Shown here one piece after another: positions 13,938 to 63,803 of a stretch of DNA of 64,000 bases. The notes under the pieces are model-generated. The model was not told the DNA's origin, ran no database searches, and worked only from the letters and a program-made list of their open reading frames with translations. The stretch's first letter is position 1. Each line of letters begins with the position of its first letter. The translations under genes and the position numbers were made by a program. Source of the DNA: Streptomyces musisoli (GTDB taxonomy: Bacteria; Actinomycetota; Actinomycetes; Streptomycetales; Streptomycetaceae). The stretch lies in assembly GCF_016741855.1 (NCBI RefSeq), contig NZ_JAERRH010000002.1:372001-436000 (forward strand), written 5' to 3'.

Positions 13938-14289
13938 CGGGCCGCGACATCGTCCCCGGATGATCAACAGACCCGGGACACCCGCCGCCGTGCCCGCTGG
14001 GCGCCTCGTGCGTGAGTGCGGGTGCGTGGTGGGTTCTCGCGCAGTTCCCCGCGCCCCCTTCGGGGCGCTGGTGGTGCCGTCTGCCGTGATATCTGGGGTC
14101 GCCGCGGGGTGTGGTTCGTGGGTGGGTGCGGGTGCGTGGTGGGTTCTCGCGCAGTTCCCCGCGCCCCCTTCGGGGCGCTGGTGGTGCCGTCTGCCGTGAT
14201 ATCTGGGGTCGCCGCGGGATGTGGTTCGTGGGCGGGTGTGGGTGTGTCGTGGTTGATCGTGTTGTTTCCCGTGGCCCTTCGGGGGGGCG
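13938..14289. repeat. 110-bp tandem repeat with hairpins between convergent genes
   Basis: Copy 1 (14016-14125) and copy 2 (14126-14235) are nearly identical with a 110-bp period; a degenerate third copy starts at 14236. Each full copy contains TTCCCCGCGCCCCCTTCGGG followed by GCGC, which folds into a GCGCCCC/GGGGCGC hairpin, and the less GC-rich motif GTGATATCTGGGG. I recall this hairpin sequence as a common interspersed element of Streptomyces intergenic regions. It lies between convergent genes, so it probably also ends transcription. No coding potential is supported. Confidence 0.75.
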
Positions 14290-16081: not shown

Positions 16082-17441
16082 GCTGCGCTCCCTTCATGAC
16101 GGCCGCGCCGTCCGCGGCACCGCGCACCACCGCCGCCAGTCGCTCCAGTGCCGCGAGGCTGTGCCCCTCGACGAAGGCGTCGACACTGGGCAGGGCCGCG
16201 GCCATCCCGGCCGCCAGCGGCGCGTAACCGGGGCGGGCCTTGCGGGGGTTGGCCCAGATCACCTGGTGGGCGAGGGCGTGCAGGCGGCGCATCTGCGCGC
16301 CGAGCAGCTCCGGATCCCCGCGCTCCCAGCCGTCCGACATGAGGACGACGACCGCGCCGCGCGCCATGCCGCGCTGTCCCCAGCGGTTGAGGAACTCGCG
16401 CAGCAGCTCGCCGAGGCGGGTACCGCCGCGCCAGTCCGGCACGGCCGCGGCGAGGGCGGCCATCGCCAGGTCCGGGTCCCGGTGGGACAGCTCGCGGGTC
16501 GCCCGGGTCAGCCGGGTGCCGATGGTGAACACCTCCGTCCGGCCGGCCCGCACCGCCGCGTGCGCGAACCGCAGCAGCACGTCCGCGTACGGCGCCATCG
16601 AACCGCTCACGTCGACCAGCAGCACGACCCGGCGGGGACGCTCCACGCGCGCGTGCCGCCGCAGCCGGGCGGGCTCCCCGCCGCGGCGCAGCAGCTCCCG
16701 TACCGTGCGGCGCGGGTCGACGTCCCCGCGCCGGGCCGGGCGCCGCCGGGCGGTGCGCCGGGTCTGTCCGTGCAGCGCGAAGGCGGCGAGCAGGCGCCGC
16801 AGCTGGGCGCGTTCCGCGGCGTCCAGATCGGCGACGTCACGGTGCCTGAGCACCTCCGCGGAGCTGGCGAGCGTCGCCGTGGGCGGGCCCGAGGGTTCGC
16901 TTCCCGCCGGGTCGCCCGGTACGGCGGTCGCCTCCCGTGCGGTGAGCCGCAGCCGGGGCGGGGGAGGGGTACGCATCCTGCGCGGGGCGGAGCCGCCGGG
17001 CGTCCCGAAGTAGGCGGCGAACACCCGCTCGTAGCGCTCCAGGTCGTCGTGACCGCCGCACAGCGTCGCCCGTCCCGCCCAGTACACGTCCGCCCGCATC
17101 CCGGGCCGCAGCACACCGACGGCGCGCAGGAACGCGTACAGCCGCTCGCTGCTCGCGTCCAGTCCGGCCGCCCGCAGCGCCCGCACGAACCCGACGAGCA
17201 CGGCGTCGGCCCCGGCCCACCCGGATTCCCTGGCCCGCCCGGATTCCCTGGGCCGCCCGGAGTCCCCCGCCCGCCCGGATTCCCCGGCCCACCCGGAGTC
17301 CCCGGCCCACCCGGAGTCCCCGGGCCACCCAGGCGCGCCAGCCCGCCCGGAGTCCCCGGGGGCATCACGTGTTCCGGGAGGGGCGGTCTGGCCGGTGGGT
17401 GGCCGGTCCGGTTCGCTCGGTGGCGGGGGCAACGCCCTCAC
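16074..17441 (-). CDS. coxE: CoxE-like VWA-domain protein with N-terminal hexapeptide repeats
   Basis: 455 residues. The C-terminal VWA domain (about 265-440) has an intact MIDAS motif, [14 protein letters not shown], with a second element MSDGWERGD. CoxE works with the AAA ATPase CoxD to build the [CuSMoO2] site of CO dehydrogenase in Oligotropha; form II enzymes often carry the pair too. Unusually, residues 29-76 are a low-complexity run of about eight 6-residue units such as GDSGWA and GESGRA, encoded by an 18-bp tandem repeat. The true start could be downstream of it. The gene overlaps moxR by ATGA. Confidence 0.9.
17214..17357 (-). repeat. 18-bp coding minisatellite in coxE
   Basis: Eight imperfect tandem copies of an 18-bp unit encode hexapeptides of the form G-[DE]-S-G-[RW]-A at residues 29-76 of the CoxE-like protein. 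The variation is mostly at codon 1 (GGC/CGG) and codon 5 (TGG/CGG). It lies upstream of the conserved part of the protein. Confidence 0.85.
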
Positions 17442-22187: not shown

Positions 22188-22390
22188 GCGCCCTCCAAGC
22201 CGTGCGGGCCGGAGTGAGGAATCAGCCACGCTTGCGTGATGTAGGTCACTCTATGGCCGCCCCCTGGAGGCGGCGAGCGCTGCGGCGGCGGATTTGTTGA
22301 GCGTTAATCGATTGCCGTCGGCGGAGCGGCCCTGCTGCACTGCTGGGGACCCGATGCCCCACGGGATGTCACACGGAGAGGACTCTTCCG

Positions 22391-22501
22391 ATGCGCGCTG
22401 CGTGCATGTCCACCCAGGAAGGAACCCACCCCGTGTCGAAGGACATCACGCTCAGTGCATCTGCTCAATCTCGGAATCCTCGCGCATGTCGACGCGGGTA
22501 A
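22391..22501 (+). CDS. possible leader peptide upstream of the ribosome-protection gene
   Basis: A 36-codon frame starting ATG 22391 (MRAACMSTQEGTHPVSK) is preceded by GGAGAGGA at good spacing and ends with TAA at 22501, 46 bp inside the downstream gene in another frame. An overlapping upstream frame before a TetM-type gene is reminiscent of the leader attenuation reported for tet(M). It may equally be a chance frame. The 22188-22454 interval otherwise holds the divergent promoters of this gene and of the cox operon, with an AATCGATT palindrome near 22310. Confidence 0.35.
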   Translation: MRAACMSTQEGTHPVSKDITLSASAQSRNPRACRRG

Positions 22502-24522
22502 GACCAGTCTGACCGAACGGCTGCTGCACGCGGCCGGGGTCATCGACGAGGTCGGCAGCGTCGACGCCGGCAGCACCACCACCGACACCCTCGCGCTGGA
22601 GCGGCAGCGCGGCATCACCATCAAGTCCGCCGTCGTGTCGTTCCCGCTCGACGGCGTCACCGTCAACCTCATCGACACCCCCGGCCACCCGGACTTCATC
22701 GCCGAGGTCGAGCGCGTGCTCGGTGTCCTCGACGGCGCCGTCCTGGTCGTCTCCGCCGTCGAGGGCGTCCAGGCCCAGACCCGCGTGCTGATGCGGACCC
22801 TGCGCCGGCTGGGCATCCCCGCCCTGGTCTTCGTCAACAAGGTCGACCGGCGCGGTGCCCGGGACGCGGCCGTGCTCCGCCAGATGGCGCAGCGGCTGGC
22901 CGTACCGCTCGTCCCCATGGGGACGGCCGCCGGGCTCGGCACGCGCGCCGCCCGCTTCGTCCCGGGCCTCGGCCCGGCCGCGCTGGAGGCGCTCGCGGAC
23001 CGGGACGACGGCCTGCTGGCCGCCTATCTCGACGGCGGGGTATCCCAGGGCCGGCTGCGCCGGGCCCTGTCCGCGCAGACCCGCGACGCCGCGGTCCACC
23101 CGGTGTACTTCGGCTCCGCCATCACGGGGGCCGGTGTGCCCGAGCTGATCGACGGCATCGAGCGGCTGCTGCCCACCGCCCCCGGCGACCCGGGCGGCCC
23201 CCTGTCCGGCACGGTCTTCAAGGTCGAGCGGGGCCCGGCGGGGGAGAAGACCGCCTACGCCCGCCTCTTCTCCGGCACCCTGCGCGTCCGCGACCGGATC
23301 CCGTTCGGGGACGGCCGCCAGGGCACCGGTGACGAAGGCCGCGGCACCGGTGACGAAGGCCGCGGCACCGGCGGCGGAGGCCGCGGCACCGGCGGCGGAG
23401 GCCGCGGCACCGGCGGCGAAGGCCGCGTCACCGCGCTCTCCGTCTTCGACGGCGGCACGGACAGCCGGGCCGACAGCCGCCGCGGCGGGCCGGATCGTCA
23501 AGGTGTGGGGCCTCGGCGGCATCCGGATCGGCGACGCGCTCGGCACGCCCGCCCGGCCGTCCGGGCGGCACTTCGCGCCGCCCACCCTCGAGACGGTCGT
23601 CGTGCCCGGCCCCGGCGCGGACCGGCGCTCCCTGCACCTCGCCCTGACCCAGCTCGCCGAACAGGACCCGCTCATCGGCGTCCGCCACGACGAAGTGCGC
23701 GGAGAGACCTCCGTGTCCCTCTACGGCGAGGTGCAGAAGGAGGTCGTCCAGGCCACCCTCGCCGACGAGTACGGCCTCGACGTCACCTTCCGCGAGACGA
23801 CGACCCTGTGCGTCGAACGGCCGTCCGGTACCGGGCACGCCGTCGAGTTCGACAAGAAGGACGCGAACCCCTTCCTCGCCACGGTCGGCCTGCGTGTCGG
23901 CCCCGCCCCGCCGGGCTCGGGTGTCGCGTTCCGCCGGGAGGTGGAGCTGGGCTCGATGCCGTACGCCTTCTTCAAGGCCGTCGAGGACACCGTCCGGGAG
24001 ACCCTCGGCCAGGGGCTGCACGGCTGGGAGGTCACCGACTGCACGGTCACCATGACCCACTGCGGCTACTCGCCCCGGCAGAGCCACGCGCACCAGGGCT
24101 TCGACAAGAGCATGTCGAGCACCGGCTACGACTTCCGGGGCCTGACCCCGCTGGTCCTGATGGAGGCGCTGCGCCGGGCCGGCACCCTGGTGCACGAGCC
24201 GATGCACCGTTTCCGCCTGGAGGCACCCGCCGACACGCTCGGTGCGCTGCTGCCGGTGCTGGCCCGGCTCGGCGCGGTACCGGAGAGCACCGCCGCCCGG
24301 GCCACGGCCTGTGTGCTGGAGGGCACGGTACCGGCCGCCCGGGTGCACTCCCTGGAGCAGCGGCTGCCGGGCCTGACGCGGGGCGAGGGCGAGCTGGAGA
24401 CGGCCTTCGAGCATTACGCGCCGGTGACCCGCGGCACGGTCCCGCGGCGGCCGCGCACCGACCACAACCCGCTGAACCGGAAGGAGTACCTGCTGAACGT
24501 GACCCGCCGGGTGGGGGAGTGA
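22455..24522 (+). pseudogene. TetM/OtrA-like ribosomal-protection GTPase, frameshifted
   Basis: The EF-G-like product starts at GTG 22455. Its GTPase motifs are intact: AHVDAGKTSL (P-loop), the RGITI switch, DTPGHPDF and FVNKVDRRG. Homology runs in one frame to about 23450 (TALSVFDGG) and resumes in the next frame at 23488 (GRIVKVWGLGG), continuing through domains III-V to 24522. So one extra base (or two missing) lies in 23451-23487. Five 21-bp units just upstream insert seven residues each (GTGDEGR-like). Frame-corrected length minus repeats is about 654 residues, normal for the family. As written it is broken, making a 693-residue product with a nonsense C terminus; a sequencing error is possible. 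Confidence 0.85.
23322..23426 (+). repeat. 21-bp coding minisatellite, five copies
   Basis: Five consecutive 21-bp units encode GTGDEGR, GTGDEGR, GTGGGGR, GTGGGGR and GTGGEGR inside a domain II loop of the ribosome-protection GTPase. Because 21 is a multiple of three, copy-number change alone would not shift the frame. The unit probably arose from the native loop preceding TALSVFDGG. Confidence 0.92.
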
Positions 24523-27850: not shown

Positions 27851-27924
27851 GAAGGGGCGGCCTACTCGACAAGATGTGTGCACGACAAGATTGGGGTGAC
27901 CGGTGGGATGACGGAGGGGGACGC

Positions 27925-40527: not shown

Positions 40528-40761
40528 ATGACCGATCTCAAGCGCTTCGCAGGACACGCGGTTCTCGTCACGGGCGCCGCCCGCGGAATCGGCGCGGCCG
40601 TCGCCCGGCGGCTCGCCGAGGAGGGCGGCCGGGTCCTGCTGACCGACCGGGACCTGCCCGAGGCGGAGCGGACCGCCTCCGCCCTGCGCCAACGGGGCCT
40701 CGCCGCCGAGGCGTTCGCCTGCGACGCGGCCGACCGCGCGGTCGTCCGGCGCCCTTCCTGA
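40528..40761 (+). pseudogene. truncated SDR gene (N-terminal fragment)
   Basis: 77 residues that match only the first Rossmann repeat of a short-chain dehydrogenase: VLVTGAARGIGAAVARRLAEE and the following strand/helix to FACDAADRA. The catalytic Ser/Tyr/Lys region is missing. The frame then runs into a 69-bp segment that is duplicated at the 3' end of the convergent decarboxylase gene and stops at 40761. This looks like the remains of a deletion or recombination event, not a working enzyme. Confidence 0.8.
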
Positions 40762-40899
40762 CCGCCGGTGCGAGTCAGGCGGGCACCGGCGTCAGCCCGA
40801 GGCCGCCGCCAACACCGGCTTCCACGCGGCCGTCCGGCGCCCTTCCTGACCGCCGGTGCGAGTCAGGCGGGCACCGGCGTCAGCCCGAGGCCGCCGCCA
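40743..40899. repeat. 69-bp direct duplication at a truncated gene junction
   Basis: 40743-40811 and 40831-40899 are almost identical (period 88 bp, 19-bp spacer). The second copy contains the stop codon and last codons of the decarboxylase gene; the first contains the end of the truncated SDR. The duplication therefore joins the two. Confidence 0.88.
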
Positions 40900-56403: not shown

Positions 56404-57189
56404 ATGGCGGACGAGAACGGCACGCGGAGCGCCGACGGTGCGCCGGATGTGGGTAAGCGGCTCGCGGACGGTGGGCCGGGCGCGGATGAGCGGGGCGCGG
56501 ACGGTGGGCCGGGCGCGGGTGAGCGGGGCGCGGATGGTGCGCCGGGCGCGGGTGAGCGGGGCGCCGATGGTGTGCCGGGCGCGGGTGGGAAGGTCGCCGA
56601 CGGCGGTGGGGAAGCGGTCGTGGACGGTGGACGGGTGGCGGACACGGGCGGTGGGGGAGGGGCCGGCCCGGGCGGTGGCGGACGGGCGGATCCGGGCAGC
56701 AGTGGGGCCGTGGACCTGGGCGCCTTCTTCGATCGGCTCGATCCGGACATGTGCGTGGTCACGGCCGTGGCCGGCGGCGAACGCGCCGGGTGTCTGGTCG
56801 GCTTCGCCTCACAGTGCTCCATCCAGCCGCCAAGGTTCGCCGTCTGGCTGTCCAAGGCCAACCGCACCTACCGGGTCGCCCGGACCGCGCAGTGCCTCAC
56901 CGTCCATCTGCTCACCCGCGACCAGCGGGACCTGGCGGAACTCTTCGGCGGCGAGACGGGCGACGAGGTCGACAAGTTCGCGCGGCTCGACTGGCGGGAG
57001 GGACATGCCGGCGCCGCCGTCCTGGACGGCGCGGCGGCCTGGTTCGTAGGCACCGTCCTGCACCGCGTCGACGGTGGTGACCACGTCGGTCATGTGCTCG
57101 AACCGGTCCAGTGGGGCGGGGGGCCCGGCGGACCGCTGCTCCGGCTCTCCGACGCCGTCTCCATCGAGGCCGGCCACCCCGTGGAGTGA
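56404..57189 (+). CDS. flavin reductase-like protein with N-terminal 11-residue repeats
   Basis: 261 residues from ATG 56404; an in-frame GTG at 56311 overlaps the preceding stop and would add 31 residues. The C-terminal domain (from about 100) is a flavin reductase/FMN-binding split barrel: LDPDMCVVTAVAGG, GCLVGFASQCSIQPPRF, TYRVARTAQCLTVHLL. Before it lie five 11-residue units of GGPGADERGAD type (56437-56601). Likely FMN-dependent, partner unknown. Confidence 0.85.
   Translation: MADENGTRSADGAPDVGKRLADGGPGADERGADGGPGAGERGADGAPGAGERGADGVPGAGGKVADGGGEAVVDGGRVADTGGGGGAGPGGGGRADPGSSGAVDLGAFFDRLDPDMCVVTAVAGGERAGCLVGFASQCSIQPPRFAVWLSKANRTYRVARTAQCLTVHLLTRDQRDLAELFGGETGDEVDKFARLDWREGHAGAAVLDGAAAWFVGTVLHRVDGGDHVGHVLEPVQWGGGPGGPLLRLSDAVSIEAGHPVE
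56437..56601 (+). repeat. 33-bp coding minisatellite, five copies
   Basis: Five 33-bp tandem units encode GAPDVGKRLAD, GGPGADERGAD, GGPGAGERGAD, GAPGAGERGAD and GVPGAGGKVAD in the N-terminal linker of the flavin reductase-like protein. The two middle units are the most alike, so homogenisation is recent. Confidence 0.93.
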
Positions 57190-61853: not shown

Positions 61854-63803
61854 TCACCGCCGGTACAGGGTGATGGAATGACCCACTTCGCCGACCGGCC
61901 GGCTGCTCGCGATCAGCTCGGCGAGCCTGCCACGCGCTTTGGCGACGGCCGAGTCCGACACCACCAGCAGCCCGTGCACCCGATCCGGCGGCACCGCGCG
62001 CGGATCGGCGGCACGGATGCCGTAGTACGACGGCACTCCGCTGCCCTTGTACACCAGCCACACCCGCTCCCCGGGATACCGTCCGCGCAGCCGGTCGGCG
62101 AGCCGGCCCAGATCCTGCCCCCAGTCCACGTTGGAGTCGTGCAGCAGCCGGTGGGTGTGCGCGGGGCCGCCGAACGCCTCGTTGGCGTACGGCAGGTAGT
62201 ACGGGAACGCGCGCAGCGAACTCAGCGCGGCGAACGCCACCAGCGCGCCGGTCAGGATCCTGTTCCACCGCCGGCGGAGCGTGAGCGCGCACGCCGCCGC
62301 CACCGCGAGGAACACCGGCACGAACAGCGCGTACCGGGTGCCGAAGTCCCGGGCCCCGGTCATCGCCGCCGCCAGCAGCACCACGGGCGGCAGCAGCAGA
62401 TAGGGCGCGGCGGGCCGCAGCGTCCGCCGCGCCGTGACGGCCACGGCACCGGCCGCGCCGAGCGCCAGCAGTCCGAGCGGCGTCTTCACCAGCAGCGCGG
62501 CCGGCAGGTAGTACCAGAGCGAACCGGTGTACAGGTGCCCGAACAGATAGCCCTGCCAGGGGTAGTCCTCCAGGCCGAACTGGACCCGCATTCCGGCCCG
62601 GTACGCCGGCGGTACGGGGAGAAGGTCCACCAGCCGGCCGCGCAGCCCCGCCACGGCCGGCACCGGCTCGGCGGGCGAGAACCGCATCCGGGGGTCGACG
62701 GCCAGATACGCGGCCCACACGACGGCCAGGGCCACGACCGCCACGACGGCCGCGCCCAGGAGAAGCACCGGCACCCGCCCCCGCCACAGCGCGACCGGCC
62801 CCCGTTCCCGCCACAGCGCCACCGGCCCCCGTTCCCCTCGGAGCGCGACCGGCTCCCGTTCCTCTCGAAGCGCCACCGGCCCCCGTTGCCCTCGGAGCGC
62901 CGCCACCCGGCCGCGTCGGAGTGCCACCGGCCGGCGTCCCCGCCGGAGCGCCGCGGTGATCCGGCCTCGTCCGGGGGGCGCCGGCGCCCGCTCCTGCCGG
63001 CCGGCCGGCGGTGATGCGTCACCGGGCCACCGGCGGATACGGCCGGACCGCCCCGCGACCCCGACCGACACCGCCGCCAGCGCCATGACCACCGGCACCG
63101 CGGGCAGGGCGCTCATCTTGGTCGCCACGGCCGCCCCCAGCGCCGCGCCCGCCGGCATCAGATACGGCACGGGCCGGAGCCGGGCCCGCCACACCAGCCA
63201 GACCGACGTCAGCACGAACCCGGTCGCCGGCAGGTCCAGCGTGGCCAGCGATCCGTGCGCGACCACATCGGGGGAGAAGGCGTACAGGGCGAGCGCGACC
63301 AGCCCGCCCGGCCCGCCCGTCAGGTCCCGGGCGAACGCGAAGACGACCAGCCCGAACAGCAGCGTCAGCGCGATCACCGGCAGCCGCGCCCACAGCATCA
63401 GCCGCCAGGGGTCGTTGCCCGACTCGTACAGCAGATGCCGGCCCACCTCCCCCTGCGTACCGGTGTACGACGGGTCGTAGTGCGGGTCGGCGACCGCGAC
63501 CCCCGCCGCGATCAGCAGCTTCCCGAGCGGGGGATGCTCGGGGTTGTAGCGCACCCGGTGCTCGCGCCGATAGTCGGTGGCCGTCGCGACGTACACCGGC
63601 TCGTCGATGGTGGGGGTCTGCTGGACGGCCGTGGTGACCATCGCCGCGGCCATCTGCGCCAGCATCAGGACGACCAGGAGCGGCAGCAGCCGGCGCCGGT
63701 GCCGGCGCAGCCGGGCGTACGGGCCCGCGCGGACCTGCCGCGGTGGTCCCGCGGCGGGAGCCTCGGGTGGTGTGAGGACCGGGTGCTGTTCGCGTGCCAT
63801 CAT
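61854..63803 (-). CDS. PMT/ArnT-type polyprenyl-phosphate-dependent glycosyltransferase
   Basis: 649 residues with about a dozen transmembrane segments. After a cytoplasmic N terminus comes a first membrane helix and the catalytic loop TPTIDEPVYVATATDYRREH, then NPEHPPLGKLL, both typical of PMT/GT39-type transferases that use a lipid-linked sugar. A large loop at residues about 280-345 has a 9-residue tandem repeat (RGPVALWRE-like). Such enzymes add mannose to secreted proteins or other surface glycans. Its ATG pair (MM) is at 63803; rpiR follows 78 bp downstream in the same direction. Confidence 0.9.
   Translation of the reverse strand: MMAREQHPVLTPPEAPAAGPPRQVRAGPYARLRRHRRRLLPLLVVLMLAQMAAAMVTTAVQQTPTIDEPVYVATATDYRREHRVRYNPEHPPLGKLLIAAGVAVADPHYDPSYTGTQGEVGRHLLYESGNDPWRLMLWARLPVIALTLLFGLVVFAFARDLTGGPGGLVALALYAFSPDVVAHGSLATLDLPATGFVLTSVWLVWRARLRPVPYLMPAGAALGAAVATKMSALPAVPVVMALAAVSVGVAGRSGRIRRWPGDASPPAGRQERAPAPPGRGRITAALRRGRRPVALRRGRVAALRGQRGPVALREEREPVALRGERGPVALWRERGPVALWRGRVPVLLLGAAVVAVVALAVVWAAYLAVDPRMRFSPAEPVPAVAGLRGRLVDLLPVPPAYRAGMRVQFGLEDYPWQGYLFGHLYTGSLWYYLPAALLVKTPLGLLALGAAGAVAVTARRTLRPAAPYLLLPPVVLLAAAMTGARDFGTRYALFVPVFLAVAAACALTLRRRWNRILTGALVAFAALSSLRAFPYYLPYANEAFGGPAHTHRLLHDSNVDWGQDLGRLADRLRGRYPGERVWLVYKGSGVPSYYGIRAADPRAVPPDRVHGLLVVSDSAVAKARGRLAELIASSRPVGEVGHSITLYRR
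62770..62955 (-). repeat. 27-bp coding minisatellite in the PMT transferase
   Basis: About seven units of nine (once eight) residues, R-G-[EQR]-R-[GE]-P-V-A-L with W/R variants, are encoded by 27-bp tandem copies in the loop before the membrane helix VPVLLLGAAVVAVVAL. The motif is absent from the conserved catalytic parts. Confidence 0.88.

Follow-up and report, generated by a model that had tools for sequence, protein, structure and literature searches.

An OtrA/TetM-like ribosome-protection GTPase is encoded at 22455-24522 on the forward strand of the window, by which we mean the whole stretch of 64,000 nucleotides analysed here, first in frame 0 and then in frame 1 (Table 1). The change of frame is a plain property of the window sequence, but by itself it is an ordinary event and possibly an error. 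More interesting are the features of the group to which the gene belongs, a sister subfamily of OtrA rather than OtrA itself, and the hypervariable loop of domain II in which the window copy carries a 21-bp minisatellite.

Table 1. Positions of the gene and of its associated elements in the window.
Feature	Position	Strand	Basis or remark
Promoter-like element GTTAAT-N3-TTGCCG-N18-TGCACT	22303-22341	+	Conserved; resembles WblC/WhiB7-dependent promoters
Short leader ORF, 36 codons	22391-22501	+	Conserved; overlaps the start of the main gene
Predicted conserved RNA hairpin that covers the main gene's ribosome-binding site	22401-22450 (arms 22401-22411 and 22441-22450)	+	RNAalifold
OtrA-like gene, 5' part: GTPase domain and first half of domain II	22455-23474	+	Frame 0, GTG start
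21-bp minisatellite in the domain II hairpin loop	23322-23433	+	TRF; 5 full units plus 7 bases, in frame
Frame-switch interval	23475-23487	+	Net +1 compared to close relatives; overlaps the GC-only palindrome 23477-23488
OtrA-like gene, 3' part: rest of domain II and domains III-V	23488-24522	+	Frame 1, stop 24520-24522
Domain IV loop 3 with the 12-residue extension of the subfamily (GYSPRQSHAHQGFDKSMSSTGYDFRGLTP)	24064-24150	+	

Domain II repeats and the site of the frame switch

The assignment of the gene to the EF-G/TetM-like superfamily, made in the original prediction, was borne out by the domain content and by the profile matches of both halves. PF00009 was found in the 5' part and PF14492, PF03764 and PF00679 in the 3' part, giving the layout of an EF-G/Tet-type GTPase, with an EF-Tu GTP-binding domain followed by EF-G domains III, IV and V, and the motifs AHVDAGKT, DTPGH and NKVD are present in the translation. 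Against the Otr(A) profile, of 608 positions, the 5' piece matched positions 2-301 (401.6 bits) and the 3' piece positions 310-604 (330.4 bits). As both pieces match contiguous stretches of one profile, the observation of a single gene in two frames is confirmed. The comparison set consisted of 80 Streptomyces orthologue loci, 78 of which contain both sides of the switch segment; the GTPase layout was carried by one ORF in the 73 complete relatives and was interrupted only in the window copy. No second gene of this kind was found in the source genome, a 9.36 Mb draft in which the window lies on contig C61. The frame-0 ORF starting at the GTG at 22455 runs for 693 aa, and since the same shifted frame is open for at least 314 codons in 47 of the 80 relatives, this length is no sign of function.

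Comparison with relatives narrowed the switch, placed at 23451-23487 from the window sequence itself, to an interval of a few codons. The frame-0 match to the relatives stops at the Asp codon 23472-23474, or at 23475-23477, and the frame-1 match starts at the Gly codon at 23488, with 13 bases between the flanking anchors in the window and 12 in the relatives; the close ones among these read ADS-AGA-GRIVKVWGL, or something similar, in one frame through the segment. In a blastn alignment with S. echinatus the one-base (+1) gap was located at 23478, inside a perfect 12-bp palindrome made of G and C only (CCGCCGCGGCGG). The GC content over 23350-23499 is 82%, and no long homopolymer was found at the switch site.

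The array had been described as five 21-bp units neutral for the frame, and this held: TRF detected 5.3 copies of the unit with 94% matches and a score of 175, in-frame tandem repetition above chance as in a coding minisatellite. The five full units lie at 23322-23426, a partial one completes the array, and they are translated, in order, as GTGDEGR, GTGDEGR, GTGGGGR, GTGGGGR and GTGGEGR. A single copy of the unit (GTGGEGR type) is present in S. echinatus and S. tricolor, and the array differs from that of S. echinatus by four whole units. From the last conserved anchor in domain II up to domain III the window measures 256 nt, compared to 171 nt for S. echinatus; the excess is 4 x 21 + 1. This length difference corresponds to four units and one base, and therefore the expansion of the array and the break of the frame are separate events, the switch lying ~44 bp beyond the end of the array. 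On these alignments the expansion of the unit left the reading frame intact, and it is the surplus base in the palindrome that makes the switch.

The tract between fixed anchors in domain II varies widely in length, 16 residues being the commonest value (43 of 80 proteins). It has 20 residues in S. echinatus, 48 in the window, 100 in the locus L017 and about 240, mostly 9-residue repeats, in Streptomyces sp. RB17 (L013:1300-3942), and it is also extreme in S. cellostaticus (L016:670-3942), with a run of Ns. The tandem units are unrelated between species, with 21 bp in the window, 15 bp in L008, 27 bp in L013 and L082 and 42/84 bp in L016. On a tree of 28 rows the long tracts require 7 changes, at least 4 of which are forced by supported branches, and two genomes (G033 and G108) have the gene divided over two contigs, with the division at the spot of the tract. 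In our reading, the domain II loop is a place where repeats have grown in frame time and again. Its lengths, which range naturally from 16 to about 240 residues within a single ribosome-binding GTPase, constitute a ready set for probing the role of the loop. AlphaFold models had low mean pLDDT (55.6 for the S. echinatus protein and 39.4 for the long-tract L013 protein), both too poor to interpret.

Other arrays were also detected in the window. An 18-bp tandem repeat of 8.3 copies is located at 17210-17359, where the alignment with S. echinatus breaks, and is another lineage-specific array. Further TRF arrays are found at 14006-14252, 40737-40899, 56424-56587 and 62766-62901, with units of 110, 88, 33 and 27/54 bp, respectively.

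Origin and age of the frame break

The comparison with genes from related strains proposed along with the original prediction showed that the switch segment is crossed in one frame by 76 of the 78 relatives (S. cellostaticus, with its Ns, being counted among the 76). The two broken alleles each differ from that of the window: in S. olindensis (L051) the shift lies in the GTPase domain, whereas S. djakartensis (L066) has an out-of-frame deletion of ~106 bp in the same domain II hairpin, at about 2885-2900 of the locus. This deletion is a second independent break at the domain II hairpin spot.

Codon constraint was compared on both sides of the switch. Between the window and S. echinatus, the 3' part had a dN/dS of 0.22, against 0.15-0.23 for this part in the other pairs compared, and the 5' part had one of 0.32. 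In the 3' part the polarised changes of the window numbered 6 at first, 2 at second and 14 at third codon positions, with 6 amino acid changes in the window vs. 5 in S. echinatus, and in the tree both are sisters (support 100/96) with terminal branches of 0.047 and 0.048. Constraint is thus undiminished downstream of the switch, which leaves a very recent break or an error in the sequence as the options. Along ~32 kb of synteny with S. echinatus, at about 93% identity, gaps within genes were multiples of three or compensated, with the exception of one close to where the ORF at 27874 begins, the position of this gap relative to the true start being unsure, so that the frame switch is the only clear uncompensated indel within a gene. 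Generally low sequence quality thus becomes less likely, whereas the probability of a local error within the 82% GC stretch is left as it was.

A recent true mutation is the origin to which we give a slight and weak preference, at an even chance. By this account the locus is a chromosomal Streptomyces gene of the OtrA-like subfamily to which two independent things happened. The 21-bp unit (GTGGEGR), of which close relatives have one copy, expanded to five copies in a domain II surface loop without loss of frame, and very recently one surplus base in the GC-only palindrome ~44 bp downstream would have thrown domains III-V out of frame. The resulting product, with ~344 residues in the native frame followed by ~349 out of frame, could not act as a ribosome-protection GTPase, this predicted loss of function being a consequence of the loss of domains III-V. 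Against a true mutation it can be said that undiminished constraint is equally expected from an error of sequencing or assembly, and that the genome is a draft in 147 contigs with the break at a GC-rich spot. Such an error, by which the gene of the strain would be intact, the array real and the surplus base in the palindrome a fault of the consensus, has a probability that falls only a little short of even. It is favoured by the position of the break inside the palindrome and by the absence of this break from all 78 relatives, as well as by the lack of any relaxation downstream, and the same hairpin troubles assemblies elsewhere, with the Ns of S. cellostaticus and the split contigs of G033 and G108, whereas the otherwise clean ~32 kb of alignment and the lack of a long homopolymer at the site speak against it.

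The remaining explanations are all improbable. Slippage in the repeat tract had been proposed as a cause of the shift, with an assembly error at the repeat as the alternative, and neither is supported in this form, as the array has exactly four extra units and the surplus base lies ~44 bp away in the palindrome. An off-register change within the array would fit with its closeness to the break, but every unit has 21 bp, the additional base with respect to the sister species aligns outside the array, and far larger tracts, such as that made of 27-bp units in L013, keep the frame; we therefore hold this origin to be very improbable. Persistence of constraint in both halves would also be expected if the shift were a programmed +1 event or a reversible switch of phase variation. 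However, a conserved shift site with split frames is absent, since 76 of the 78 relatives are in one frame, and every intact relative, the sister species included, has a continuous frame; the shift is not accompanied by a stop codon and occurs at a non-conserved site, the array comes in multiples of three and the palindrome lacks the character of a simple-sequence tract, all of which makes either mechanism highly unlikely. Least credible of all is a split gene yielding two working proteins, a GTPase half and a domain III-V half translated from an internal GTG. A frame-1 ORF of 397 aa does start at a GTG at 23329, but this codon lies inside the array and the first codons of the ORF are the array read out of frame, and the split was found in no relative. 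Moreover, the ribosome-protection proteins known so far function as a single chain of all five domains.

Conserved promoter-like element and leader

The AAT-N3-TTG pattern of the promoter-like element was matched in 64 of 77 loci, with a spacer of N17/18 to TGCACT across loci. Promoters dependent on WblC/WhiB7 are defined by an AT-rich box 3 bp upstream of the -35, a spacer of 16-19 bp and a -10 of the form TANNNT, in the layout published for WblC (PMC7157823); compared to the WblC consensus, the element here has TGCACT as its -10 and two mismatches to GAAAWY in its box.

Downstream of this element lies the leader ORF, which in 73 of 77 loci has its start 64 nt upstream of the GTG and extends 47 nt into the gene, and the 64-nt leader has a mean column entropy of about 0.53 bits vs. 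1.48 in the flank upstream. A coding leader peptide was considered and rejected, as the substitutions do not seem codon-constrained and the conservation is at the nucleotide level, and the segment was therefore treated as a conserved RNA or initiation region. With 26 sequences, RNAalifold predicted a hairpin whose 3' arm covers the ribosome-binding site; its cells are paired in 98.1% of cases, compared to at most 55.4% when the hairpin was slid along the alignment, and most pairs are invariant, with two pairs varying on both sides (8 cells with both sides changed). The evidence for the hairpin comes from the alignment, the single-sequence fold of the leader being not better than shuffles (z 0.47), and the leader had no match in Rfam. 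A leader that responds to antibiotics is plausible. Translational attenuation is also a possibility for this leader (22391-22455), whose spacing is fixed in nearly all relatives.

Relation to Otr(A), TetM and other known systems

In the curated NCBIfam collection the cut-off for Otr(A) (NF000120) is 900 bits and that for the tet_protect equivalog (NF012153) is 775 bits. The intact relatives of the window gene missed both, with 709-740 bits for Otr(A) and 652-685 bits for tet_protect, whereas the members of the genus above the Otr(A) cut-off reach 1136 bits. In 150 Streptomyces genomes, full-length scores fell mainly into two groups, one above about 840 bits (Otr(A) and near kin) and another of about 700-790 bits, to which the window gene belongs. 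Both kinds coexist in several genomes (G064, G073, G123, G133, G146 and G164), which have a true Otr(A) and a second, lower-scoring gene of the window type.

The loop 3 of domain IV also separates the two kinds. In the subfamily it reads GYSPRQSHAHQGFDKSMSSTGxDFRGLTP, with a 12-residue extension (RQSHAHQGFDKS type); 109 hits, including a few duplicate loci, have the 29-residue length. The extension is nearly invariant across Streptomyces, and varied forms of it occur in other families within the order, one genome from the same class also having such a form. The short loop 3 (APLSTAADFR type), an Otr(A) trait, is absent from the subfamily and was present in all 12 high-scoring Otr(A) loci (L119-L130). 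It is on account of the scores below both cut-offs and of this near-invariant extension that the protein is assigned to a sister subfamily and not to OtrA. By the same token, with scores below both cut-offs and the extension lying in the drug-displacing loop, the claim that a real frameshift would abolish an antibiotic-protection function, against tetracycline in particular, is unproven. Protection against tetracycline by the subfamily may take a modified form, or its action may be directed at something else.

A broader proposal, tentative and rather unlikely as a whole, is that these genes constitute a distinct actinobacterial ribosome-protection subfamily, sister to OtrA, in which the extension would reshape the tip of domain IV at the decoding site, a leader hairpin over the ribosome-binding site would control translation, and the domain II loop would be a hot spot for in-frame repeats, different in each lineage, that perhaps tune the contact with the ribosome; its target would be an antibiotic or a stalled state other than, or beyond, plain tetracycline. 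Genes easily labelled 'tetracycline resistance' in many Streptomyces are a separate group with an altered drug-site loop, and that label should therefore be tested.

Regarding known systems, the window gene shares with Otr(A) (NF000120) the top family match of both halves, the order of domains and, in the intact relatives, an alignment over the full length, whereas true Otr(A) genes (>900 bits) lack the 12-residue extension of domain IV and the 12 examined lack a long domain II tract. The S. echinatus orthologue aligns over its whole length with TetM/TetO as seen on the ribosome (PDB 3J25, 3J9Y and 4V6V; E about 1e-105). Tetracycline is dislodged by loops of domain IV (PMC4342817), and Pro509 of TetM, at the loop tip in the drug site, overlaps the drug (PMC7456112); the loop of TetM is short (YYSPVSTPADFR) and that of the subfamily is 12 residues longer. 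At the position of the tract TetM has a short turn, its aligned residues lacking five residues of the S. echinatus protein. The tetM gene of S. coelicolor (SCO0783), described as an EF-G paralogue, belongs to the regulon activated by WblC (PMC7157823), and the promoter layout here resembles the published WblC consensus; SCO0783 may be a member of this subfamily or of Otr(A). Finally, as in intragenic minisatellites in general, the unit is a multiple of three and its copy number varies by lineage with the frame kept, but here, in contrast to these, a single loop in one enzyme family has repeatedly acquired units unrelated to each other.
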